Shown here piece by piece: positions 9,671-40,097 of a DNA stretch of 64,000 bases. Where the stretch lies: positions 11,207,338 to 11,271,337 of the forward strand of contig NC_092028.1 in NCBI RefSeq assembly GCF_042242105.1. Reading direction: 5' to 3'. Made by a program: the position numbers and the translations under genes. Every line of letters begins with the position of its first letter. Position 1 is the first letter of the stretch. This stretch comes from Pempheris klunzingeri (lineage: Eukaryota > Chordata > Actinopteri > Acropomatiformes > Pempheridae). The notes under the pieces were generated by a model, which was given only the letters and a program-made list of their open reading frames with translations, was not told where the DNA came from and did no database searches.

Positions 9671-11608
9671 TTTTTTTTTAAATCAATGCAGGTAAGAAAG
9701 GTGGCCACAAAGGTCGCGTGCGGACGTACACCAGCCCCGAGGAGATAGACGCCCAGATGAAGGCAGAGAAGGAGAGGAAAAAGGTTGGTGGAATGAACAA
9801 CCAAACTCTCTCCAAACGTGCGCAGCTTCAAAGTGTTGGTCAAGCTCTAAACATGCTGGGACCCACACTTCCCAAAAAGCATCTCCCCTTTGGGAAGAGT
9901 GAAGCACGTAAGCAAGTAAACTGATCTTGATTTTTAACATTGCTGGGATGCCCCCTGCAAGACCCCAAACACAACCAGACTGGAGAGGGGAACAGATAAG
10001 TAGCTGCGTGTGTTTGGATGAGTACATGCCTGCGTATACAGGTGTTGTATGTATTCCTTGTTGTAGCGGCATGTGTTTGACCTGGTTTTCTTTTGTCATT
10101 TATACGTTCTAGCAGGAGCAGGAGCAGGAGGAGCAGGGTGCAGCTCAGACTGACGCAGCAGAGGAGAAGTTACCAGCGTCAGGATCAGATGAAAGCGATG
10201 ATGAAAATTCCTTGGTACTGCCACACTGTTATATATAGATACACACTACTCACAAAAAGTTAGGGATATTCGGCTTTCGGGTGAAATTTCAGGATGAACC
10301 TAAATTGCATTAGAACCTTTACAGGCGAACTTAATGTGACCTTCTCTAAACCTTTGAATGCACATGTCCAACTGTTCAGTGTCTCAGTACTTTTTGCACA
10401 AGTTGCTGTTCTCTAACAAGACGCTTAACAGCAAAATTCACAGCAGGTTTGATCCATGAATCGACCAATACATTTCCTGCTTCAGTTAGAATTGGTATTT
10501 AAACAGTCCTCCTCATCATGCTGTTCACATTCTGACATCATGAGACCAAGACGACACCTAACAATTGATCAGCAGCACCTCGGCATTGCGAGGCTTCAAA
10601 CAGGAAGTCCTCAGATGGAAGTGGCCACTGAGCTTAGAGGGTCACAGAGTGTCATCAGGAGGTTGTAACAGTGATACAGAGACTGGAAGAGTCACAGAAA
10701 GGAGAGGAGTGGACGTCCTTTGGCCACATCCCAATTTATTGAGACATTGAAATTTTTTGCTGTGGTATACCCACCACTGTTGTTAGATTTTCTTTCAATA
10801 ACTTGTTTAAGATGAATAAAATGACCATTGCATGCTTAAATGCCCTACTTTCATGATATAATATCACTGTAGCATTCACTTTTTACATTTTCCATAAATT
10901 TCACCTGAAAGTCGAATATCCCTAACTTTTTGTGAGTAGTGTATATAATAAAACATGTATTATTAGTGTTGTTTGCACCTGTGAAACACCTTGTAATTGT
11001 TTTGTTTCGGTTTGTCAATTTAAGAATGCGGTCGTTTCATTTTTTGCTGTATTCAAAGCATGTGTTTTTACACTGTATGATCTGCTGCAATGTGTTTGCA
11101 GAGGAGAAGAGCGGGTGTGGAGGGCTTGATAGAAATTGAGAACCCCAACAGAGTGGCTCAGAAGTCGAAGAAGGTGACGCAGATTGAGGTGGACGAGCCC
11201 AGACAGTTATCAAGGAGAGAGAGGTGTGTGTTTTGTGCCTAAATACATCAGCCACATAACATCAGTGTTAAATGGGAACTTCATTTTTAACGTATAGTAT
11301 ATTTTTAAAAACGTGTTAACAGTAGAAGTTGCATACCAAGACATGTATTATGTGCTAGAAATGTTTTAAAAACATTTTACCAGCATATTTTGTGCACTGT
11401 AGGGTAAATCTGCACACAAATACAATGTTAACACCCTTTTTTGAAAGTAGCATGACCTCCAGTAAAGCTCTGCATGTAACAGTTAGAACAGTGACACTAA
11501 TAGGCTGATGCTTTGTTTTATGTGTATAAATTCCCACAGACATTAAGCTTCTATAATCCCTTAAAAAAAGTTTGATAGTGACTTTCTTTATGTGATGTTC
11601 CTCACCTT

Positions 11609-15024: not shown

Positions 15025-15132
15025 GTACGGTCGAAAGTTTGGCGGACTTTATCCTCCACAGAAGAAGCTTTTAGCGCCGAAGTCTGACTGCAGCTTTAAC
15101 AATTGACAGCAGCGGGAGTTTCCTCTCAACTG
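15025..15132 (+). promoter_or_regulatory. shmt1: Putative SHMT1 non-coding first exon and start region
   Basis: A GC-richer segment ends with a strong donor, CAACTG|GTGAGT, at 15132/15133. A matching acceptor (TTATCTAG) precedes 15958, 21 nt upstream of the SHMT1 ATG. This suggests a non-coding exon 1 spliced to an exon starting at 15958. The transcription start is not fixed by sequence. Confidence 0.5.
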
Positions 15133-15978
15133 GTGAGTTTAAACTAAATAATTTAATATTTCCGGGGCTCAGAGTAATGTAAACATACCAGAAGCTTGTT
15201 CGCAGTTTCAAGTTTGTGTTCGCGGATAAAAAGTAAGTTCTTAAAGATGATTTATAGTCGCACTTACATGCTTTTTATGCTAGTTAGCAGCCTGCCAACC
15301 AGTTATTCAGGTTCTTTCCTGTCAAAAGTATCAAACTAGTTTACAGGTTAACCAAGTTGGATATCTTTAACCATATATCTTTTCCTCAGCTCAGCACTAT
15401 TACCCACAATTTAACATTCATAGTTTACAATTGACATTTCCCCTCTTCCTCCAAAGCTAACAACTTTCTGGGTCAGTCGATCAGAGCAGATAATAAATGT
15501 CAGGCGCTTGGCTTTGCTAGTGTTAGCTGTTTGACAGATGCATGACTGACCTGCAGTGACTCTAAATGCAGACAGGACGAGCGGACTCAAATAAGGATTT
15601 GGCAAGTTTAAACACAAGTGCAAACTTCATGCAGTGCTGAATGTGCTGTCTGAGTTACCTAATAAGCTGTTTTGTTTCTGCAGCTTATCAGTCTGTGTGA
15701 TGGTTTAAAGGTTAACTGGTGAGACCATGTCACGCCATGTCTGAAGAGTTGCAACACTGCTGCATGTGTCCTCCTTTGTCTGAGGCTTAGGACTGTAATA
15801 ATCTGTGATAATGGATCTGTTTGACTTAAGCCTGAACTCATTGTTCATCCTTTGATAAGGCAACCACTGTATTTTCTTAAATCGACTTCTTTTATTTTTA
15901 TTAAAAGATCTGGTCTGACTTGGATGTTGTTTTTGTTTCTGTGTGATTCTTATCTAGTCTCTTAGAGAAACAACGACC

Positions 15979-18900
15979 ATGTCTTTAACTAATGGCCACA
16001 GTGTGAGCAAAGAAACATGGGATTCGCACAACAAGATGATGCTGGAGCCTCTGTCCGTGAACGACTCTGAGGTTTGTGTTCAGTGGATTTTAAAAACAAG
16101 GTTTTGTCTGCACTCATGATTTGTGATTCAGTGGGATCACCAGTTATTGCAAATAATTTTTTACTTGCCATTCAGTCCAGTAATTACGCATGCTTGTGGG
16201 ACAGATTGTCATTTTCTCCTGAATAACACAGTGTTTGTGAATGTTTGTGTTTTAGGTGTTTAACATTATAAAAAAAGAGAAGCACAGGCAGATATACGGT
16301 TTGGAGCTGATCGCATCTGAGAACTTTGCCAGCAGAGCTGTTTTAGAGGCTCTGGGATCTTGTATGAACAACAAATACTCTGAAGGATATCCTGGTCAGA
16401 GGTACAAGAATTAATCATGGTTGTCTATGAAATCCCAATGTTTGATTACATCCTATAAGCGATGCGCTCTGCTTCATCCTACCTATTTATTAAGTAACCA
16501 GTGCGATCCGTGTGGCCAGGTACTACGGTGGTACGGAGCATGTTGATGAGCTGGAGAGACTGTGTCAGAAGAGGGCGCTGGAGGCCTACGGTCTGGACTC
16601 AGAGAAATGGGGGGTCAACGTGCAGCCATACTCAGGTATCAAATAGCGATATAGCACCTAAAACGCTCTCTCTTCAAACTCCTCTGTACGCTTTTCTTTT
16701 TCATTTCCTCTCATCATGTTGTCCCTCGTATGACTTCTTTCCCGTTCGGTTTATGCTTGTCCGTAAGGTTCACCTGCTAACTTTGCTGTCTACACGGCCA
16801 TCGTGGAACCCCATGGCAGGATCATGGGACTGGACCTTCCTGATGGTGGTCATCTGACACATGGCTTCATGACTGAGAAGAAGAAAATCTCAGCCACGTC
16901 CATCTTCTTTGAGTCCATGCCGTATAAGGTACAATTTGTCAACACACTCATCCAGGATTACCGATGTTACTTTACATCTCCACCTCTGTGAGCCTCATCA
17001 AATCCTCTTTATCTTTACCGAGTAACAGAGTATAAATCAAACCAAGAGTTTGTCATCTGCGGTGTTTTGTTCAAACTTAATGTGGCTTTCTGAAACACAT
17101 TTTAAGTTTGGAGTAGTTACTTCTCGATTACAGACTCCTGGATTAAGTGAAACAAGATTAGTCCTCATTAGTGAAAGTATGTGCATGTGGCATTTCCCTG
17201 TGGCTTCTCGTGAGGGCTGGAGTCCATAATTTGATGGAATCGAGAGTAAAATCTGAAAACTGAAAACACACAATCACATTTTTACAAACCTGAAACTACC
17301 TTGTAGTTATCCAATCTACATCAACAGAGACCTTCACTTTCTCTCAGTATCAGTAACTGTTTTCCAGGGAGACCTGAATACATGCATTGAAACAAACAAA
17401 CAAAACAGTTAAAAAACATGTAAAACAGCTGGTACAATCTGCTGCTCAAGTGTTCTGATGTCTTAATTGTTTTACGCAACTAATTTGTAATTGTGATTTT
17501 CATTCACAACAGCGTAATGTTGTTGCAGTGCACAGAACAGTCAAGACTGAAGAAAACTGTCTTTTGACTACATGTCTTGTTCATATTCTTTGTGTTCTGT
17601 TCATATGTTGAGATAAAATATAATCCAGACAGTGTCATGTATCTTTAAAATATATATTATGATGATTTCAAATGGTGTTGCACATGAGTGTAATTTAATT
17701 TTAACATTAGAGATTATTAGAGTTCATAACCATAAGATTATTAGAGAATCGAACAGGGGACTTGTTAGGGCACTGGTTTAACTCAAGTGTTAACACAATA
17801 TTGAGCAAAGAGATTGCTAGTGGATACGTAGAGAAGATGGATTTGATAGATTTATTAGACACTGTATCTAAATTTAAAGTTTTTGGTGGAATTAAACACA
17901 GCGCAAGTGGAATAATTGTTTATAAAATGATAAAAGTTAAAGGCACAGTTCAGGTTGTTTCAGTCTAATGGGCTTTTTCGCTGATGTTCTGTACATCAGA
18001 TGTAGCTGTTTTGGTGTGAAGTGACCTGACACGGTCTTCTGTTTTTAGGTGAATCCAGAAACTGGCTACATTGACTATGACAGACTGCAAGAAAACGCTC
18101 GGCTGTTCCACCCCAAGCTCATCATCGCAGGTCCTTTAGCGCGCGCATACACAAACACACTTATTTAAACACAAATAAACACATTGATGAAATAAAGGAG
18201 GCGTGTATATTCAAAGAGGGCTTTTCTTCAGGAACAAGCTGCTATTCCCGCAACCTTGACTACGCCCGCATGAAGCAGATCGCTAATGAGAACGGTGCAT
18301 ATCTAATGGGAGACATGGCTCACATCAGTGGGTTGGTGGCTGCTGAAGTGGTGCCTTCACCCTTCGAGTACTGTGACATTGTTTCCACAACAACACACAA
18401 GACGCTGCGTGGCTGTCGTGCAGGACTCATCTTCTACAGGAAAGGTAGCAATGAACTGTGGAGCTTCTGTCAAAACAGACCACTTTTTTCTTTTGTCATC
18501 AGTAATCTTTTTTTTTTTTTTTTTTTTTTTTTACATATATCAGTACATTGTGATTTCTCTAGCTTTCCATTTTTTCCCCTCTGTCTTTCTATTTCCCTCC
18601 TCCAGGCGTGCGCAGTGTGGATGCCAAGGGGAAGGAGATAATGTACAACTTGGAGTCTTTGATCAACCAGGCCGTGTTTCCTGGGCTGCAGGGAGGACCA
18701 CACAACCACGCTATTGCAGGTACACCTGTCGTCATCATTTTTCTCCCTCTGAATTTTCTCTGCCACTTTCATTCAATTATATCAACATCCATCTCGTTCA
18801 CGTCATGTTTTTCATCGGCAGGTGTTGCTGTAGCTCTCAAACAAGCCATGACGCCAGAGTTCAAGGCCTACCAGACTCAGGTTGTTGCTAACTGCAAAGC

Positions 18901-21900
18901 TCTGTCCAGTACTCTTATTGACCACGGCTACAAGATTGTCACTGGTAAATGCCACAAACACATCTTTAGTGTCAGTTGCCATTGACAGTAAATTAACCAC
19001 GACAATTTAGATAACTTTCCTCATAATTATGCAACATGTTTCTCATAATTCCAAGCTCAAGATCTTAGATGTTTTTTTTTTTTAATAGTTACAAGATGCA
19101 TAATTCAGAAAATGTTTTCTTTCTTATTGAATACGATCAGCTTCTTTAGCCCTGAAAATGCCAATCTGACATTACACGTAAACAGCCATGTATCCCTATT
19201 GAATCGTGTAAAAACAAAGGTTCGTGGCATACCATGCTTGATGTCTGTGTTTTCTTTTGCTCACTCTATGCTGGAAAATGGGTTGTGATGGCAGATTTAT
19301 GCTAGAAGCTAATAGCTTCTTAGTCTTTGTGTAGTATCTTCTAAACTCTTTTCCTCTCCCTGTGTAGGCGGCTCTGACAACCACCTGATCCTGTTGGACC
19401 TGCGCAGCAAAGGGACTGATGGCGGACGTGCTGAGAAGGTGCTGGAAGCCTGTGCCATCGCCTGTAATAAGAACACCTGTCCAGGTACTGTGTGTGTGCA
19501 TGTCTATCCTATATCTCTGTGAGCGTCGCTTTAGATGTAGGCTTTGTTAAGGATTCTTGTAAATGGCTTTTTCCCTACAGAGTACCTCTCCTAATGTTTC
19601 CACATACATGTGTTTGTACAGGGGATAAGAGTGCTTTACGTCCTAGTGGTCTGAGGTTTGGCTCTCCAGCTCTGACCTCCAGAGGCTTGGTGGAGGATGA
19701 CTTCAAGAAGGTGGCCGAGTTCATTCACAGAGGTAATCTATTTTTTTTTTTTTTTTTATATTCTTTTTATTGAGTTTTATGGTATGTGCAAATAATAATA
19801 AACAAGCAAACAAGAAGGCAAGAACAAAAACAAAACAATCCCACCCACTACAAAACTAACTTCGTGCACTGCAATACAATATACAGAATTTTACAGAAAA
19901 AAAAAAACCACATATACTTATCAGACAGATTTAAAAACAAACAAAAAAAAAAAAAAACATTGCATCCTTCAGTGAGATATTGAGTTATTATGATATGGAG
20001 CTACGGTCAGAGTTTTTTGTAAAAAAGTATGCAGAGGGGTCCAGAGTCTCCAAAATTTTTCTGATTTGTGATTCAGATCGTGGGTCAGTTTTTCCAAAGG
20101 AAGAAGGGCCGATATCTGAGACATCCACATATTGACCGTAGGGACCTGGGGGGCCGACCATCGCAGTAATATGCATTTCTTAGCAAGGAATAACAGGATT
20201 GTTAATAGAGATCTTGTATCTGTGTCAAAAAGATTATCAGGTACATGGTTTAACAAATAGAGAGAGGATGACATTGTGAAACGTTTACCAGTCACTTCCT
20301 GGATAACAGAGTGTACACCTTTCCAAAACATTTTGATGTGATCACATGACCAGAACAAATGGATAAATGACCCCTTATGAACTTTACATTTATAACAAAG
20401 GTTTGAGCTGTTGGGGAACATCCTTTGGAGGCGAACAGGGGTGAAATAAGTCCTATGAAAAAATTTGAAATTTTGTTCATGTATTGAGATGGAAGTACAT
20501 TTTGGGAACACTCCGTCACAAATCTTGGTCCAGTCACTGGAGCTAAATGTTACCCCCAGGTCACGCTCCCACAGCGGCTTCAAAGAATCATAGGCAGAGG
20601 TCTGGAAGTGCACAAGTATAGCATAATACTCTGAGAGTTTCCCTTTCAATGATTCAGCAGAGAGCAGGGTGTTTTCCAGTTCAGAGAGATTCAGACGAAA
20701 TTTGCTCCCCCGCAGAAGGGATTCAAGAAAATGACGGATTTGAAGGTATTTATAAAAGTCTTTAGAAGGAATGTTGAACTCCGTCCTAATTTGCTCAAAT
20801 GGCTTTAAAGAGTCAGAAGTAAACAGGCTGGTGAAATCCAGGATACCTTTAGACATCCATTCTAACAAACCAATACTCCTAACCTGAGGAGGAAAATCAG
20901 GGTTCAGAGCCAGCGGGGATCGAACTGAAATAACTGATGGGATGTTCAAATATTTTCTAACGTCCTTCCAAGCCAATAATGTATTGTAAACAACAAAATG
21001 AAATTCTACTCTGTCTATATTGTACATAAAAGGAAGAGAATCCAGTTTGAGAGGATGACATGCTAGGGATTCAAGATCAATCCATAATGAGTCCTGTCTA
21101 TTCATGAACCAGTTAGTCATCATTTTAAGTTGAGCCGACCAATAATAAAGTTGAAGATTAGGCAGGGACAAACCCCCCAGTTCCCTCGGCTTAGTGAGTT
21201 TTGTAAACTTAACTCTCTGATGTTTATTATTCCAAATATACTGAGAAATATTGGTGTTCAAAGATTTAAAAAAAATAGGGGTCAAATAACAGGGAAGGTT
21301 TTGAAATAAATAGTTTAGTCGAGGGAGGATATTCATTTTTATAACATTAACCCTCCCTAGAAAAGAAGTAGGTAAGGATGACCATTTCTTTAAGTCATTT
21401 TTAATTTGCTGAATTAAAGGGGAGTAATTAGTACTAAATAAGTCTGTCAAAGTTGGGGTGAGAAAAATACCCAAATATTTGAGACCCTTTTCTGACACCT
21501 GAAAAGGAGATTGTACTGGTCTATCCCGAGGAATGTTGAAAGACAAAGCGGCTGATTTACCTAAGTTTATTTTATAACCTGATAAGGCGCCAAATGAGGC
21601 TATAGAGTTCAAAGCAGCTGGGATGGACTTTTCAGGTTTCAATAGGTATAAGAGAACATCATCAGCAAAAAGGGAAATTACATGTTTTTTCTCATTCCTT
21701 GTGATCCCTATAATATCAGAGTTAGACCTAATTGCTTCGGCTAAAGGTTCAATAAACAGGGTGAACAATAGAGGTGATAAAGGGCATCCCTGTCTACAAC
21801 CCCTACGCACCGAGAAACCTTCAGATATCAGGCCATTAGTGTTGACACTGGCCATTGGGTCTGAATAGAGAGTTTTGATCACATTGATGAAGTTAGAGCC

Positions 21901-24900
21901 GAGGTCAAATTTATCCAATACTGAAAACAAAAAAGGCCATTCAACTCTGTCAAAAGCTTTTTCAGCATCTAGGGAGATTATAAATGCTGGGGTTTTATTA
22001 GTATTGATATAGTGAATGATATTAAGAGCACGCCGTACATTATCTACACCATACCTTGACTTCACAAATCCTGCCTGGTCTGGGTTGATAACTTTAGGGA
22101 GAATTTTTTCGAGTCTACGAGCCAGTACCTTTGCAACTATTTTATAGTCTACATTAAGTAAGCTGATAGGCCTATAGGATGAACAGTCCAAGGGGCTTTT
22201 GTCTTTCTTTAAAATTAGGCTAATAGAGGCATATCTCCAAGATGGTGGAATATCACCTTTCCAGATGTTATTAATGGCGGGTATAAGAATTGGGTGAATC
22301 TCGGGCCAGAATTTCTTGAAAAATTCTAATGGAAACCCATCTGGGCCTGGGCATTTCCCATTTGGCATGGCTTGGATTGCAGCCCAGACTTCCTCTGGTG
22401 TAAATTCAGAATTTAAGTTGGAACGATCCTCCTCTGCAACAGCGGGTAATGAGATGTTATCAAGGTAGGAATTGATATTAGAATCAGCCTTTTGGGAGCT
22501 ATAAAGGGAAGAGTAGAAATCTCGAAATGTTTGATTAATGATAAGAGGGTCACAGGAAACGCCGCCACTAGGTGTCCTTATCATGTTAATTGAACGGTCA
22601 TTGTTTTGGTTCTTCAAATGATAGGCAAGTAATCGACTGGATTTGTTACCAAATTCGTAATACTTTTGTTTAGAGAAAAGCAGTAACTTCTGAATATGAC
22701 GTGTGTGGTCAATATTGAGTTTAGTTTTTGCGGCCACCAATGCTTTTAGATTTAAGACTGTAGGTGATTGTTTATGTAGTTGTTCTAAATTAGAGACTTC
22801 CTTCTCAAGGAGTTTCCTATTGTTCTCCAATATTTTCTTCTGATGGGATGTGTAGGAGATAAGTTGACCGCGTATGGTAGCTTTAGCAGCATCCCATATC
22901 ATAGAAGGAGAAACTGGAGAGTTTTTATTATCGAGCCAGAATTGTGACAAGGCATTACGGACAAAGGAGCCAAAGGAGTCGTTATTCAAAAATGACATAT
23001 TGAATCTCCATATAGGGGTTCTAGGGATGCTAAATGTTGGATCAATCTGTAAATGCACGGAGGCGTGATCGGATAATACAATAGAGTCTATGTGGCAGGT
23101 CTGGACTGACTGCAAGAGTTGTTTAGGAATGAAAAAATAGTCGAGTCTAGAATATGAATTGTGAGGGTGTGAATAAAATGTATAGTCTCTTGTTTTAGGA
23201 TTAATTTCCCTCCACACATCTATTAACCCGGTGTCTGCGCACAGGCTGTTGAGAAGTTTGGATGATCGTGGGTTCGGCATGTTAGCAGAGGAGGATCTAT
23301 CTAAGGAACCATTCATAATACAATTAAAATCTCCAGCCAAAAAACCAAGGCCTTTGCAAAAGTTATTAAACATTAGAATAATATGTGAAATGAAGTTAGG
23401 CGTATCGCAATTTGGGCCATAGACGTTGAGAATAGTAATGTGCTGTTTAAGTACAGAACCAGTAATCAAGATAAATCTACCCTCTATGTCCTTCTCCTCG
23501 TGTTCCAAAATAAATGGGAGGTTCTTATGTATAAGAATTGCTGTGCCTCTTTTATTTTGTGAGTAAGAAGAGAAATAAACTTGGCCTACCCAGTCCCTCT
23601 TAAGTTTCAGGTGCTCTGTATCAGACAGCCTAGTTTCTTGAAGTAATGCTATGTCAGATTTCTGTTTTTTCAAGTGTGTCAGAATCTTTTTCCTCTTTAT
23701 CATATGGCCAATCCCTTGGACATTCCAAGTAACAAGTTTAAGACCAGACATAGAAGTCAGGGATTGACGTGAAGACTAACAGATTAGGTTGATCAGGAGG
23801 AAAAAGAAAGAAGAAAAAGAGAGAGAGAAAAAAAAAGAGGATAAAGAAAACTGACAATGAAATAGGTGTGGTAAAAAAGTCAAAATTGCAGCGCTTACCC
23901 TCCCATACCCTGTCCCCAAACGACAGGAATAAAATACCCCAGATAAAGTCACAGACGGGATTAAACGTAAACATGAACTGTTGTTAACTTGAGTAAACCA
24001 CAGTAACACTATAACCGCTCAAGAAGCCAACCAAACCCCAGGCCAGGTCGTGGACACCCACAGGAGTCCCCCACCCCCCATAAACAAGAAAAAGGAAAAC
24101 AATATTGTATGACCTGAGCATCTTAAATAAAAGTATAGACCCTAAATTGGTCTTGGAAACAAATATACCCTGCTTATGACAGTTATATTAGTGGTATTAA
24201 ACAGAGAAAATAATCTTATTACCAGGGATAAAATGCTGATGCTTTCGAGTCCAGTATCTATCATTTCAATGTCTTTGTGAAAAAGAAGAGTGTAGTATGA
24301 TGAGTGGTGGGGGGTCCACACAGGTTAAGTCTATTCTCTCCATCAAAACCGGAAACAATTAAAGGTTACCTCAGTCAATAGATTCCAAAAAAGTGGCAGC
24401 CAACTCGGGGCTGTCAAAAAGACGAATTCGGCCATCGTGGAGACAACGCAGGCGAGCCGGGTAAGCAAATCCACGATACATGTTGCGGCGAGCCATCGCT
24501 TGAGGTAATCTATTTAAGAAAAAAGAAATTGCCAAGATTTTCTCTGAGAAATGTATTTAAACTGAGGTGAGGTGATCTCTCTCACTACAACTCCCAAGGA
24601 GCACTTTGGTAAAACATTCAGCCACCAAGCTATCATTTTCTGTCGTGCCTACTGCTAATGGCTGAGATTTGTAATAACATGTAACACGTTTAGAAGTTTA
24701 TCAGTCCACCTTGAGATTTGGGGTAAATTCAGCAGTGTTTTATGCTCATTTCTAACAGTGAAATGATGTGACTTCGCTTCAGCTCTGATTGGGAAAAATC
24801 CTCATGAGCTTCTTCTCCATATCATCTCCTGCAGGTATTGAGCTGACCTTGGTGGTGCAGAGAAGCCTGGAGCCCAAGGCCACGCTGAAGGAGTTCACTC

Positions 24901-25007
24901 AGGCACTGTCCCAGGGAGAGAAGTTCCAGCAGCGAGTGGCAGAAATCAGGGCAGAGGTGGAGGCTTTTGCTGGTCAATTCCCCATGCCTGGCCTGCCTGA
25001 GCTGTAG
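15979..25007 (+). CDS. shmt1: Cytosolic serine hydroxymethyltransferase SHMT1
   Basis: Eleven coding exons: 15979-16071, 16256-16401, 16520-16635, 16768-16928, 18049-18130, 18232-18444, 18606-18719, 18822-18944, 19368-19484, 19622-19732 and 24835-25007, giving 482 aa (human 483). The enzyme is PLP-dependent and converts serine and tetrahydrofolate to glycine and 5,10-methylene-THF in one-carbon metabolism. Visible signatures are the start [79 protein letters not shown] and the PLP motif [15 protein letters not shown], with Schiff-base lysine K256. No mitochondrial presequence is seen, so it is SHMT1 rather than the mitochondrial paralog SHMT2. All exons are intact. The last intron holds an antisense LINE inserted 8 nt past the splice donor. 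Confidence 0.97.
16929..18048 (+). other. SHMT1 intron 4, no feature recognised
   Basis: The longest SHMT1 intron apart from the LINE-bearing one. It is AT-rich. A 68-codon plus-strand frame at 17762-17968 resembles no family I know and has no supporting context. Nothing else is seen. Confidence 0.5.
19730..19743. repeat. LINE target-site duplication, left copy (contains SHMT1 donor)
   Basis: GAGGTAATCTATTT here matches 24502-24515. The last bases of SHMT1 exon 10 (GAG) and the splice donor GTAATC are inside the duplication. The final TTT may belong to the poly(T) tail, so the true duplication is 11-14 bp. Confidence 0.9.
19969..23751 (-). CDS. LINE ORF2: AP endonuclease plus reverse transcriptase
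   Basis: 1260 aa, close to the usual length of L1 ORF2p, without stop or frameshift. An N-terminal AP-type endonuclease carries TWNVQG (N9), LLQETRL (E39), NVYGP, AGDFNC (D141, N143), RLDYFF and LSDH (D228, H229). The reverse transcriptase follows, with [79 protein letters not shown] and the catalytic FADD (D697, D698). Near the C-terminus a CxxC...H...C cluster ([18 protein letters not shown], about residues 1112-1130) matches the cysteine-rich motif of L1 ORF2p. The protein would nick target DNA and copy LINE RNA. It lies antisense within SHMT1. Confidence 0.95.
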   Translation of the reverse strand: MSGLKLVTWNVQGIGHMIKRKKILTHLKKQKSDIALLQETRLSDTEHLKLKRDWVGQVYFSSYSQNKRGTAILIHKNLPFILEHEEKDIEGRFILITGSVLKQHITILNVYGPNCDTPNFISHIILMFNNFCKGLGFLAGDFNCIMNGSLDRSSSANMPNPRSSKLLNSLCADTGLIDVWREINPKTRDYTFYSHPHNSYSRLDYFFIPKQLLQSVQTCHIDSIVLSDHASVHLQIDPTFSIPRTPIWRFNMSFLNNDSFGSFVRNALSQFWLDNKNSPVSPSMIWDAAKATIRGQLISYTSHQKKILENNRKLLEKEVSNLEQLHKQSPTVLNLKALVAAKTKLNIDHTRHIQKLLLFSKQKYYEFGNKSSRLLAYHLKNQNNDRSINMIRTPSGGVSCDPLIINQTFRDFYSSLYSSQKADSNINSYLDNISLPAVAEEDRSNLNSEFTPEEVWAAIQAMPNGKCPGPDGFPLEFFKKFWPEIHPILIPAINNIWKGDIPPSWRYASISLILKKDKSPLDCSSYRPISLLNVDYKIVAKVLARRLEKILPKVINPDQAGFVKSRYGVDNVRRALNIIHYINTNKTPAFIISLDAEKAFDRVEWPFLFSVLDKFDLGSNFINVIKTLYSDPMASVNTNGLISEGFSVRRGCRQGCPLSPLLFTLFIEPLAEAIRSNSDIIGITRNEKKHVISLFADDVLLYLLKPEKSIPAALNSIASFGALSGYKINLGKSAALSFNIPRDRPVQSPFQVSEKGLKYLGIFLTPTLTDLFSTNYSPLIQQIKNDLKKWSSLPTSFLGRVNVIKMNILPRLNYLFQNLPCYLTPIFFKSLNTNISQYIWNNKHQRVKFTKLTKPRELGGLSLPNLQLYYWSAQLKMMTNWFMNRQDSLWIDLESLACHPLKLDSLPFMYNIDRVEFHFVVYNTLLAWKDVRKYLNIPSVISVRSPLALNPDFPPQVRSIGLLEWMSKGILDFTSLFTSDSLKPFEQIRTEFNIPSKDFYKYLQIRHFLESLLRGSKFRLNLSELENTLLSAESLKGKLSEYYAILVHFQTSAYDSLKPLWERDLGVTFSSSDWTKICDGVFPKCTSISIHEQNFKFFHRTYFTPVRLQRMFPNSSNLCYKCKVHKGSFIHLFWSCDHIKMFWKGVHSVIQEVTGKRFTMSSSLYLLNHVPDNLFDTDTRSLLTILLFLAKKCILLRWSAPQVPTVNMWMSQISALLPLEKLTHDLNHKSEKFWRLWTPLHTFLQKTLTVAPYHNNSISH
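24371..24501 (-). pseudogene. LINE ORF1 C-terminal fragment
   Basis: The minus strand from the 5' edge of the LINE encodes about 42 residues, including [16 protein letters not shown] and [15 protein letters not shown] before a TGA at 24373-24371. The YPARLR...G...F.SPE..ATFL pattern resembles the C-terminal domain of L1 ORF1p, the RNA-binding chaperone. It is cut off by the target-site duplication at 24502, so ORF1 is lost upstream. Assignment to ORF1 rests on position and this short resemblance. Confidence 0.75.
24502..24515. repeat. LINE target-site duplication, right copy
   Basis: GAGGTAATCTATTT repeats 19730-19743 exactly. It recreates an AG|GTAATC donor-like sequence 331 nt upstream of the last SHMT1 exon. 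Confidence 0.9.
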
Positions 25008-27449: not shown

Positions 27450-30019
27450 ATGCAGGACTTACTAGCTAACGTGGATCACATCAAGTTTGACCTGGAGCTC
27501 GCTGTGCAGCAGCAGCTGGGAGCACAGCCTCTACCCTTCCCCGGCATGGACAGTAAGTGCTCGGATGCTAGCTAGTAGTTAGCCGCTGTCGGTAAACGTT
27601 AGAGTTAACAATAAAACTGACGGTAGCTAACGGCGAGTTGTCACTTTTCATGCTAGCTGTTTGTACCCAAAGTGCCACTACTCGTACTGAGGTTGTATTA
27701 ATGTTTCCTTTGCAGAATCTGGCTCTGCTGTGTGTGAGTTCTTCATGAGAGCAGCCTGTGTGAAAGGTAACATGACAACATGACATTTCAGCAGCCCTCC
27801 CGTTGTGCTGCCTGTTTGCTGTATTTACAGTAGTCACACACATAAGTTAGCTAAATACAGTCAGCTGATTGTTGTGAAATCAGTAGTGTGAGAAATTGCT
27901 TTTGAAAGAGAACTTTAGCATTTCACTTCCACAAAGGAGTCAAGACTCAAGAGTGAAGCAGCAGGTATCCTGACATTTAGGCCTGTAGTATTAGCCAAGC
28001 TTCAAAAACACTGGACTCTACATTTCCCATAATGCAGCCCAGATCACCGTTTAATTAGACTTCCCATACCTGGTAACATACCTGGTAACATACCTGGTAA
28101 CATACCTGGTAACATACCTGGTAACATGCCTGGTAACATACCTGGTAACATGCCTGGTAACATACCTGGTAACATGCCTGGTAACATACCTGGTAGCATA
28201 CCTGGTAACACACGTCAGCAGTCATCAGCCTTTTTCAAGTCAGGATAACTTCTCTTGTTTCAAATATAAGCTGATCAGAAATACTATAAATAGAAGTCTA
28301 CAGTAGGACTGGTTGATGAAGACAAGTCATTAAAGCTATACAAGAAAGAAAGCAAACAGGCCAATACTCATATTTTTTTCATGGATTGGGACACTTTCAC
28401 AATGAACAGTAAACCTGAGCATGACTGGTTTTCCTGCCTTCTTTCCTTATCAGCAAAAGAAGGGGAATTTTTCCCTTGATGGTTTGTTACAGGGGTCCTG
28501 GCTCTGACAATGATAATAATATTAATTAGAATTATGATAATAACAACAAGAAGAAGAACTTCATTTGTTTGACACATTTCGTCCAAAGATGCAGCCCAAC
28601 GTGTGTCACTAAAAAACAATGTTTGGCTGAAAACAAACATTAAAATAACATTAAGTAAAGCCATTGATAACAATATGATAAAATATATAACCAAGACCAG
28701 GAAAACCCACAGAGAAAATCATATTAATAGTAAAGATACAAAAAAAAAAATAAATCCCCAAATAAAAGCCTTTTTATTCATTCTTGTTCTAAGATCCATG
28801 GGGAGCAGAAGTTTTTGTCAACCCTATTTCCTGTAGTTCCTTCACAATAAAATCCTGTATGTGGAAAGCTTTTACTACTAAGAGCAGCAGGAAGTAGCCA
28901 CTTTTAAATGAGCAGTAACTGAAAATCATCAACTAGATCTCTGTAGAGCTCTTGAAGAGATGAAAATTAACAAATTAACTTTCAAAAGAAATGCATCGTG
29001 ATGAACTAACCCTCACTGTTTGTGAAAAAAGATTAGCAATCGACAAGACACGGACTGCCCAGGGGGCACGCATCAGGAAGGTCTGTTGTAACGTGTGTTT
29101 TGTTTCCAGGTGGGATGTGTCCGTTCCGCCACATCAGCGGAGAGAAGACGGTGGTGTGTAAGCACTGGCTCAGAGGACTGTGCAAGAAGGGAGACCAGTG
29201 CGAGTTTCTCCATGAATACGACATGACCAAGATGCCTGAATGCTACTTCTACTCCAAGTTTGGTTCGTCAACTCCGTGCTCCATAAAATCATGCAGATGA
29301 GCCCGATGACTGCATTCGCCTTGTGACTGTTGATCTGCACGCAGAGCGAATTATCCTGTTAATGTTTCGTGCCTGTTTGTCTCCCCATTTGTGTGTTGAC
29401 CCTCGCAGGTGAGTGTAGCAACAAGGAATGTCCATTCCTGCACATTGATCCAGAGTCCAAGATCAAAGACTGTCCCTGGTATGACCGAGGCTTCTGCAAA
29501 CACGGTACGTCCTGCTCAGCAGTGGACACTGACAGTCTAACTATAATAAACACACTGTTTGTACACACAGTCTTCCCCTGCTTTATCCGTCTCTCACCTT
29601 CTGTTTCAGGTCCTGACTGCAGACACAGACACACAAGGAGGGTGATCTGTGTGAACTACCTGGTGGGCTTCTGTCCAGAAGGAAAATCCTGTAAATTTAT
29701 GCAGTATGTTGTCCTTTTTTATTATTATTTTATTATTATATATTTTGTGTGTGGGGTATCACACCACTTATGACTTGTTTTAGCTTGCCTTAGAATTAGG
29801 TTTTGCAATTTCTCTTTCTCTCTCTCTCATTTATGGGATGAACTATGTAATATATAATACAAATATTTGGAGATTTAACCTTACAGCTATGCAGATTTAA
29901 CAGTGAGATATTTGTCCACAGCCCTCGTTTTGAGTTGCCTATGGGAGCTTCTGAACAGCCTCCTCTACCACAGCAAACCCAGAACCAGACAAAGGTAAGC
30001 GGTTACAAGCACAAACACC

Positions 30020-38917: not shown

Positions 38918-39061
<144 letters not shown>

Positions 39062-39478
39062 ATCTCTTTAAAAGTGAGACTGCAGTCATCAGATGTATCC
39101 TGGATAGGTGCATCCTTAAAAGAACACATGACCTGCATGTGTGTGTGAATGCACCTGAGAAAAAGACGCTGTGTCGTCATGTAATTCCTGCCCAGAGCAG
39201 ATCACAGCCAAACATAACAATAGTGTAGTGTTACAGCAAGTGCTTTCCAAGTGCTCAAGGCGAATTCCAGTTTTCACGGCTTCTTAGAGTGTGCTTGTGT
39301 GTGCAAAGAGTGTGTGCATACTCTCTTTGAGTGTGTTTGCTATGCATACAGTCCTGGGAGAGAAACAGATACAGAGATAATTTGTGCATGTGAGAGGAGC
39401 GAGAGATTAGGCGTCTGTGCGTGTGTGTGTGTGTGTGTGTATCTGTGCAGTTTACTGAAATAGAAAGAACACAACCAA

Positions 39479-39711: not shown

Positions 39712-39831
39712 ATATCAGAATTTGCCTAAAAGTCCAGCTCTTTCTGTTATTTCCCTGCAAGTCTCACTACTTTATCTTGAATCTCTTAATGTTTGTGACA
39801 CAAACTGTAATATAACAAGCTGGTGATGATG

Positions 39832-39985
<154 letters not shown>

Positions 39986-40097
39986 AAAGCAGTGACTCCA
40001 TCCTGACCTCTCTCTCCAGTCCACAGTGCTTCATTGCATGTCTCTTTTTCTCCCTCTTCTCTGTCACGCTTTATCTTAATAGTGTCAATAGACTCTC

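Follow-up and report, generated by a model that had tools for sequence, protein, structure and literature searches.

How does a gene accommodate a transposable element several kilobases long that has landed across one of its splice donors, and does the tail of that element help the donor to be used? The question arises in SHMT1 of the fish Pempheris klunzingeri, on the + strand of a stretch of 64,000 nucleotides that was analysed as a whole (the window). Here, an antisense LINE lies in the last intron, and a run of 17 Ts follows the donor of coding exon 10. The preliminary description proposed that the LINE tail had supplied a TIA1/TIAR-binding enhancer to a donor that the insertion put at risk. 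That interpretation as a whole is partly supported: its account of the anatomy largely stands, while its account of why the insertion could be tolerated fares less well.

The SHMT1 gene and the LINE in its last intron

The assembled SHMT1 coding sequence comprises 1449 nt without inner stops, and its introns, ten inside the coding region and one ahead of it, were placed by eye. The encoded protein could be aligned across residues 5-480 to cytosolic SHMT chains, with a single gap of one residue (887.4 bits), and its last 258 residues scored 449.8 bits against cytosolic SHMT as compared to 327.9 bits against the best chain named mitochondrial. A putative non-coding exon that ends at 15132 rests on placement by eye and lies outside the support of the protein alignment; the exon previously called SHMT1 exon 10 is more precisely coding exon 10, by a count that ignores this putative one. 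Coding exon 10, the penultimate (19622..19732, +), is 111 nt or 37 codons long, such that its skipping keeps the frame, and is followed by the donor GTAATC at 19733..19738 (+) in the context GAG/GTAATC. Coding exon 11, the last, extends from 24835 to the stop codon at 25007 (+). The longest T run of the window, T25 at 18508-18532, belongs to a different SHMT1 intron, with its donor at 18445, where it starts at +64 and lies 73 nt ahead of the exon at 18606.

The intron separating coding exons 10 and 11 contains an L1-type LINE of 4758 bp (19744..24501, -), antisense to SHMT1 and apparently 5'-truncated, since just a 41-aa open frame remains upstream of its ORF2. ORF2 (19969..23751, -) encodes 1260 aa without a stop and contains an APE-type endonuclease and a reverse transcriptase (PF03372 and PF00078 matches). 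Its nearest match in the PDB is human L1 ORF2p at 621.7 bits, with the best R2 match at 87.3 bits, in a collection that holds few LINE clades and in which L1 and Tx1-like elements cannot be told apart. The short frame (24371..24496, -; 41 aa plus stop), perhaps the end of ORF1, had no Pfam matches. Read in its own direction, the LINE terminates in AATAAA (19766..19771, -), a short spacer and the A-tail. No further copies were found in the window (blastn, E 1e-3), no relatives in the viral_contigs collection, and no Rfam matches at gathering score. With its ORF2 open, its duplication perfect and its tail unbroken, the LINE looks young. Other repeats of the window include an inverted repeat that might be a small DNA transposon (10239-10294 and 10891-10946; 56-nt arms, 91% complementary, 596 nt apart), a tandem array at 28041-28244 with a 12-bp unit around ACCTGGTAACAT, and a pair of long CTAT tetranucleotide arrays separated by less than 1 kb (about 38918-39070 and 39830-39990).

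The LINE is bounded by two exact copies of GAGGTAATCTATTT. The left copy (19730..19743, +) consists of the last three exon bases and 11 intron bases and includes the donor; the right copy (24502..24515, +) places a duplicate donor within the intron at 24505. Neither the 14-mer nor its first nine bases occur anywhere else in the window, the 14-mer having been sought on either strand. The duplication described earlier, covering the end of exon 10 and its donor, is therefore confirmed, and the donor is duplicated. Exact 14-mer repeats 3-7 kb apart, in words with all four letters, amount to six pairs at four places, GAGGTAATCTATTT included; the non-chance feature is that the copies sit exactly where an A-tailed LINE begins and ends.

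All hallmarks of endonuclease-dependent insertion are present, namely the target-site duplication, the A-tail and a T-rich/A nick site. On the sense strand of SHMT1 the nick site reads ATTT^AAG and is compatible with an L1-type endonuclease, for which the consensus AA-TTTT is given (PMC3219598). This endonuclease-like site favours a duplication of 14 bp, with the first nick most likely between intron positions +11 and +12; the letters alone also allow 11 to 13 bp, for which the nick site fits less well. A 14-bp duplication leaves 11 original intron bases and an added tail of 14 nt, so that three of the 17 Ts come from the target and 14 from the LINE. The earlier reading of eight intron bases followed by T17 was right as to the T17, and holds as to the eight bases only if the duplication is 11 bp long.

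We propose that the L1-type LINE arrived by target-primed reverse transcription, with a first nick on the SHMT1 sense strand at the site given above and a second on the opposite strand between exon positions -4 and -3, and that repair copied the 14 bp carrying the U1-pairing stretch of the donor. Because the exon and the intron through +11 are untouched, U1 pairing would be unchanged by the insertion; the cut likely fell outside the U1-pairing stretch. The exon-side donor copy would continue to be used, with the intron lengthened from 330 to 5102 nt.

Introners, too, show target-site duplications next to splice signals. An introner identity was rejected for this insertion, as removal of the insert leaves a 330-nt intron bounded by the unchanged donor and acceptor, compared to 5102 nt with the insert. 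In contrast to the introners of PMC9860276, the SHMT1 intron pre-existed and no new intron was made.

One of two identical donors is followed by a T-tract

The T17 tract (19741..19757, +) occupies intron positions +9 to +25. The rebuilt empty site, GTAATCTATTTAAGAAAAAAGAAATTGCC, is A-rich, with U at four of the 19 positions from +10 to +28, whereas the filled site has U at 17 of the 19; the tract is therefore new. An empty site whose donor context was already U-rich had been named as evidence against an enhancer role, and the site as reconstructed from the window is not of that kind. The other ten SHMT1 donors have 1-9 U in the same interval. Across 227 donor-like sites (whole window, both strands, score of at least 2.5 on the donor matrix, LINE and exon 10 donor included), one has at least 14 T in +10..+28, and it is the exon 10 donor, while 0.25% of all 19-mers reach at least 14 T. 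The rarity of this context goes back to a single event, the antisense LINE tail. Crosslinks of TIA1/TIAL1 downstream of donors predict enhancement, and the maps score the interval 10-28 nt beyond the ends of exons (PMC2964331); the tract was thus aptly placed by the preliminary description within the zone of TIA action in human cells.

The exon 10 donor does not look notably weak by its scores, contrary to the earlier premise. It ranks third of the 11 SHMT1 donors (15133-19733) by matrix score and sixth by the energy of its duplex with the U1 5' end (-6.7, in a range of -5.3 to -9.2), although both rankings are crude because the matrices use approximate base frequencies and some of the U1 duplexes have shifted or bulged pairing. 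A G at +5 is missing from nine of the 11 donors, that of exon 10 among them, and the sister donors stand in a U-poorer context. A need of this donor for rescue by the T-tract is thus left unsupported by the donor scores.

The duplicate donor at 24505 scores equal to the exon-side donor and has no U-tract behind it. The 23 AGs within 300 nt upstream of it score at best -2.1, lower than any of the 11 SHMT1 acceptors (-1.1 to 11.4). When the interval is extended to about 700 nt, the AGs number 56, and the best of them (0.2, at 578 nt) falls inside the score range of the real acceptors. We infer that the copy would be mostly silent, as a good acceptor is absent close upstream, and a cryptic exon that uses it appears unlikely. 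The copied AG/GT was also considered as a recursive splice site and rejected at a score of -8.8.

The T-tract may be less accessible than its letters suggest. In folds of naked RNA, which cell proteins may alter, the predicted unpaired values of U17 were 0.26, 0.25, 0.22 and 0.12 across four fold lengths. Its predicted partner in two of the four was an A11 run of the LINE (19897..19907, +), and in the longest fold (19690-20010) it paired mainly with an A15 run of the same LINE (19943..19957, +). At this last length the U17 value of 0.115 was below all 40 controls, which comprised 20 shuffled tails (0.120-0.70, mean 0.37), the lowest of them barely higher, and 20 other contexts from the window (0.19-0.92, mean 0.59). 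The donor itself is predicted to be unpaired at 0.14 in the rebuilt empty site and at 0.22-0.48 with the insert, an opening that would speak mildly for the insertion.

Weighing tolerance, enhancement and harm

We regard it as reasonably probable that this is an ordinary L1 insertion, which would owe its tolerance chiefly to the intact state of both splice sites and to the antisense orientation of the LINE; the anatomy and the scores are observed, and splicing and tolerance are inferred. The U-tract would be a by-product of the orientation of the LINE and a helper at most. Human full-length intronic L1s avoid exons: among 10134 of them, seven come as close as 20 bp or less to an exon, two of these at acceptors and hence, by subtraction, five on the donor side; of those full-length L1s within 2 kb of exons, 27.7% (644/2328) are sense (Zhang et al. 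2011; PMC3088655). The SHMT1 LINE shares with the human cases its extreme proximity to an exon, its donor side and its antisense orientation, and differs in its host, a fish, and perhaps in that its duplication covers the donor itself. An antisense, donor-side LINE is, as expected, what a survivor would look like regardless of any effect of its tail.

It is rather doubtful, by comparison, that the insertion became tolerable because the U-tract recruits TIA1/TIAL1 (TIA1/TIAR) and boosts U1 at the exon-side donor. The position of T17 relative to the mapped TIA region, the rise from four to 17 U after insertion, the lack of G at +5 and the greater predicted openness of the donor all fit such a role, and the mechanism, a U-tract from a transposable element that aids a donor via TIA, is already known from Alu and from general work on TIA. 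A 14-nt Alu U-tract shifted donor choice in 293T cells to the upstream, weaker donor and bound TIA1/TIAR, with an effect that weakens with distance, but TIA knock-down in the same study left donor choice unshifted (Gal-Mark et al. 2009; PMC2766253). Common to both systems are a transposon U-tract a short way past a donor and another donor farther on; in SHMT1, however, the two donors are identical, arose by target-site duplication and are separated by 4.8 kb, the tract comes from the tail of the LINE itself, the exon concerned is a host coding exon, and any function is putative. About 20-40% of introns carry a pyrimidine tract centred at +15 to +25, such tracts being commoner at weak donors in metazoans, C. 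elegans excepted (PMC2766253), and 5% of exons, including constitutive exons, have TIA clusters downstream of them (PMC2964331). Within SHMT1, on the other hand, most donors equally lack G at +5 and all the others have fewer U nearby, and U17 is predicted to be mostly paired over 19690-20010. Furthermore, hnRNP C prefers U-tracts of at least nine and may obstruct TIA at donors (PMC3629564), and a poly(T) insert 3 nt ahead of an NF1 exon end led to the use of a cryptic donor, although that insert lay upstream of the donor (PMC3219598). A TIA boost of the exon 10 donor is accordingly possible, but the stronger claim, that the T-tract made the insertion tolerable, sits poorly with a donor that scores no weaker than most of its sisters and a likely cut outside the U1-pairing stretch. 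Among the papers listed by term searches of open-licence literature, no account appeared of a duplicated donor enhanced through TIA by the tail of a LINE, a result that is weak as evidence of absence.

The LINE may also be harmful instead of tolerated. Its apparent youth means that it may be unfixed, and an unfixed LINE would leave no tolerance to explain, which counts against the reading as a tolerated insertion. We consider it unlikely that the allele is partly harmful and perhaps unfixed, with coding exon 10 skipped to some extent, the intron retained, or transcripts polyadenylated early within the LINE. The consequences would range from the in-frame loss of 37 codons upon skipping to a stop 13 codons from the start of the junction codon upon retention, and early polyadenylation is possible in view of the 15 AATAAA/ATTAAA hexamers that the LINE presents on the SHMT1 sense strand, starting at intron +65. 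Near human exons, young antisense L1s are underrepresented, and in human cells they recruit repressors and repress neighbouring exons (PMC6108849). In a study of NF1 patients all 18 of 18 L1-driven insertions altered splicing, having been ascertained as mutations (Wimmer et al. 2011; PMC3219598); these share with the SHMT1 LINE the insertion chemistry and similar duplications, most of those listed being 10-17 bp, but they were discovered through broken splicing. Against harm stand the intact donor and acceptor, an SHMT1 coding sequence free of decay, and an antisense, donor-side placement that belongs to the milder class in human (PMC3088655). Assemblies err at homopolymer runs and at repeats; it is nonetheless highly improbable that the junction is an artefact, since a single clean insertion fits the perfect duplication, the polyadenylation signal and the endonuclease-like site.

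Meaning of a duplicated donor

The locus is a clean and apparently young case of a splice donor duplicated by a transposon. It offers, in one intron, two identical donors with a U-tract behind one only, and this pair, which differs in the U-tract, is well suited to testing whether the tail of a LINE aids nearby donors. A wider rule can be suggested, which we hold to be improbable, whereby an L1 inserting antisense over a donor duplicates it and, through its tail, singles out the exon-side copy for use in preference to the intronic one. Were this to hold generally, antisense L1 insertions at donors would secure their own tolerance, which would give one more reason why L1s close to exons tend to be antisense and to lie on the donor side.
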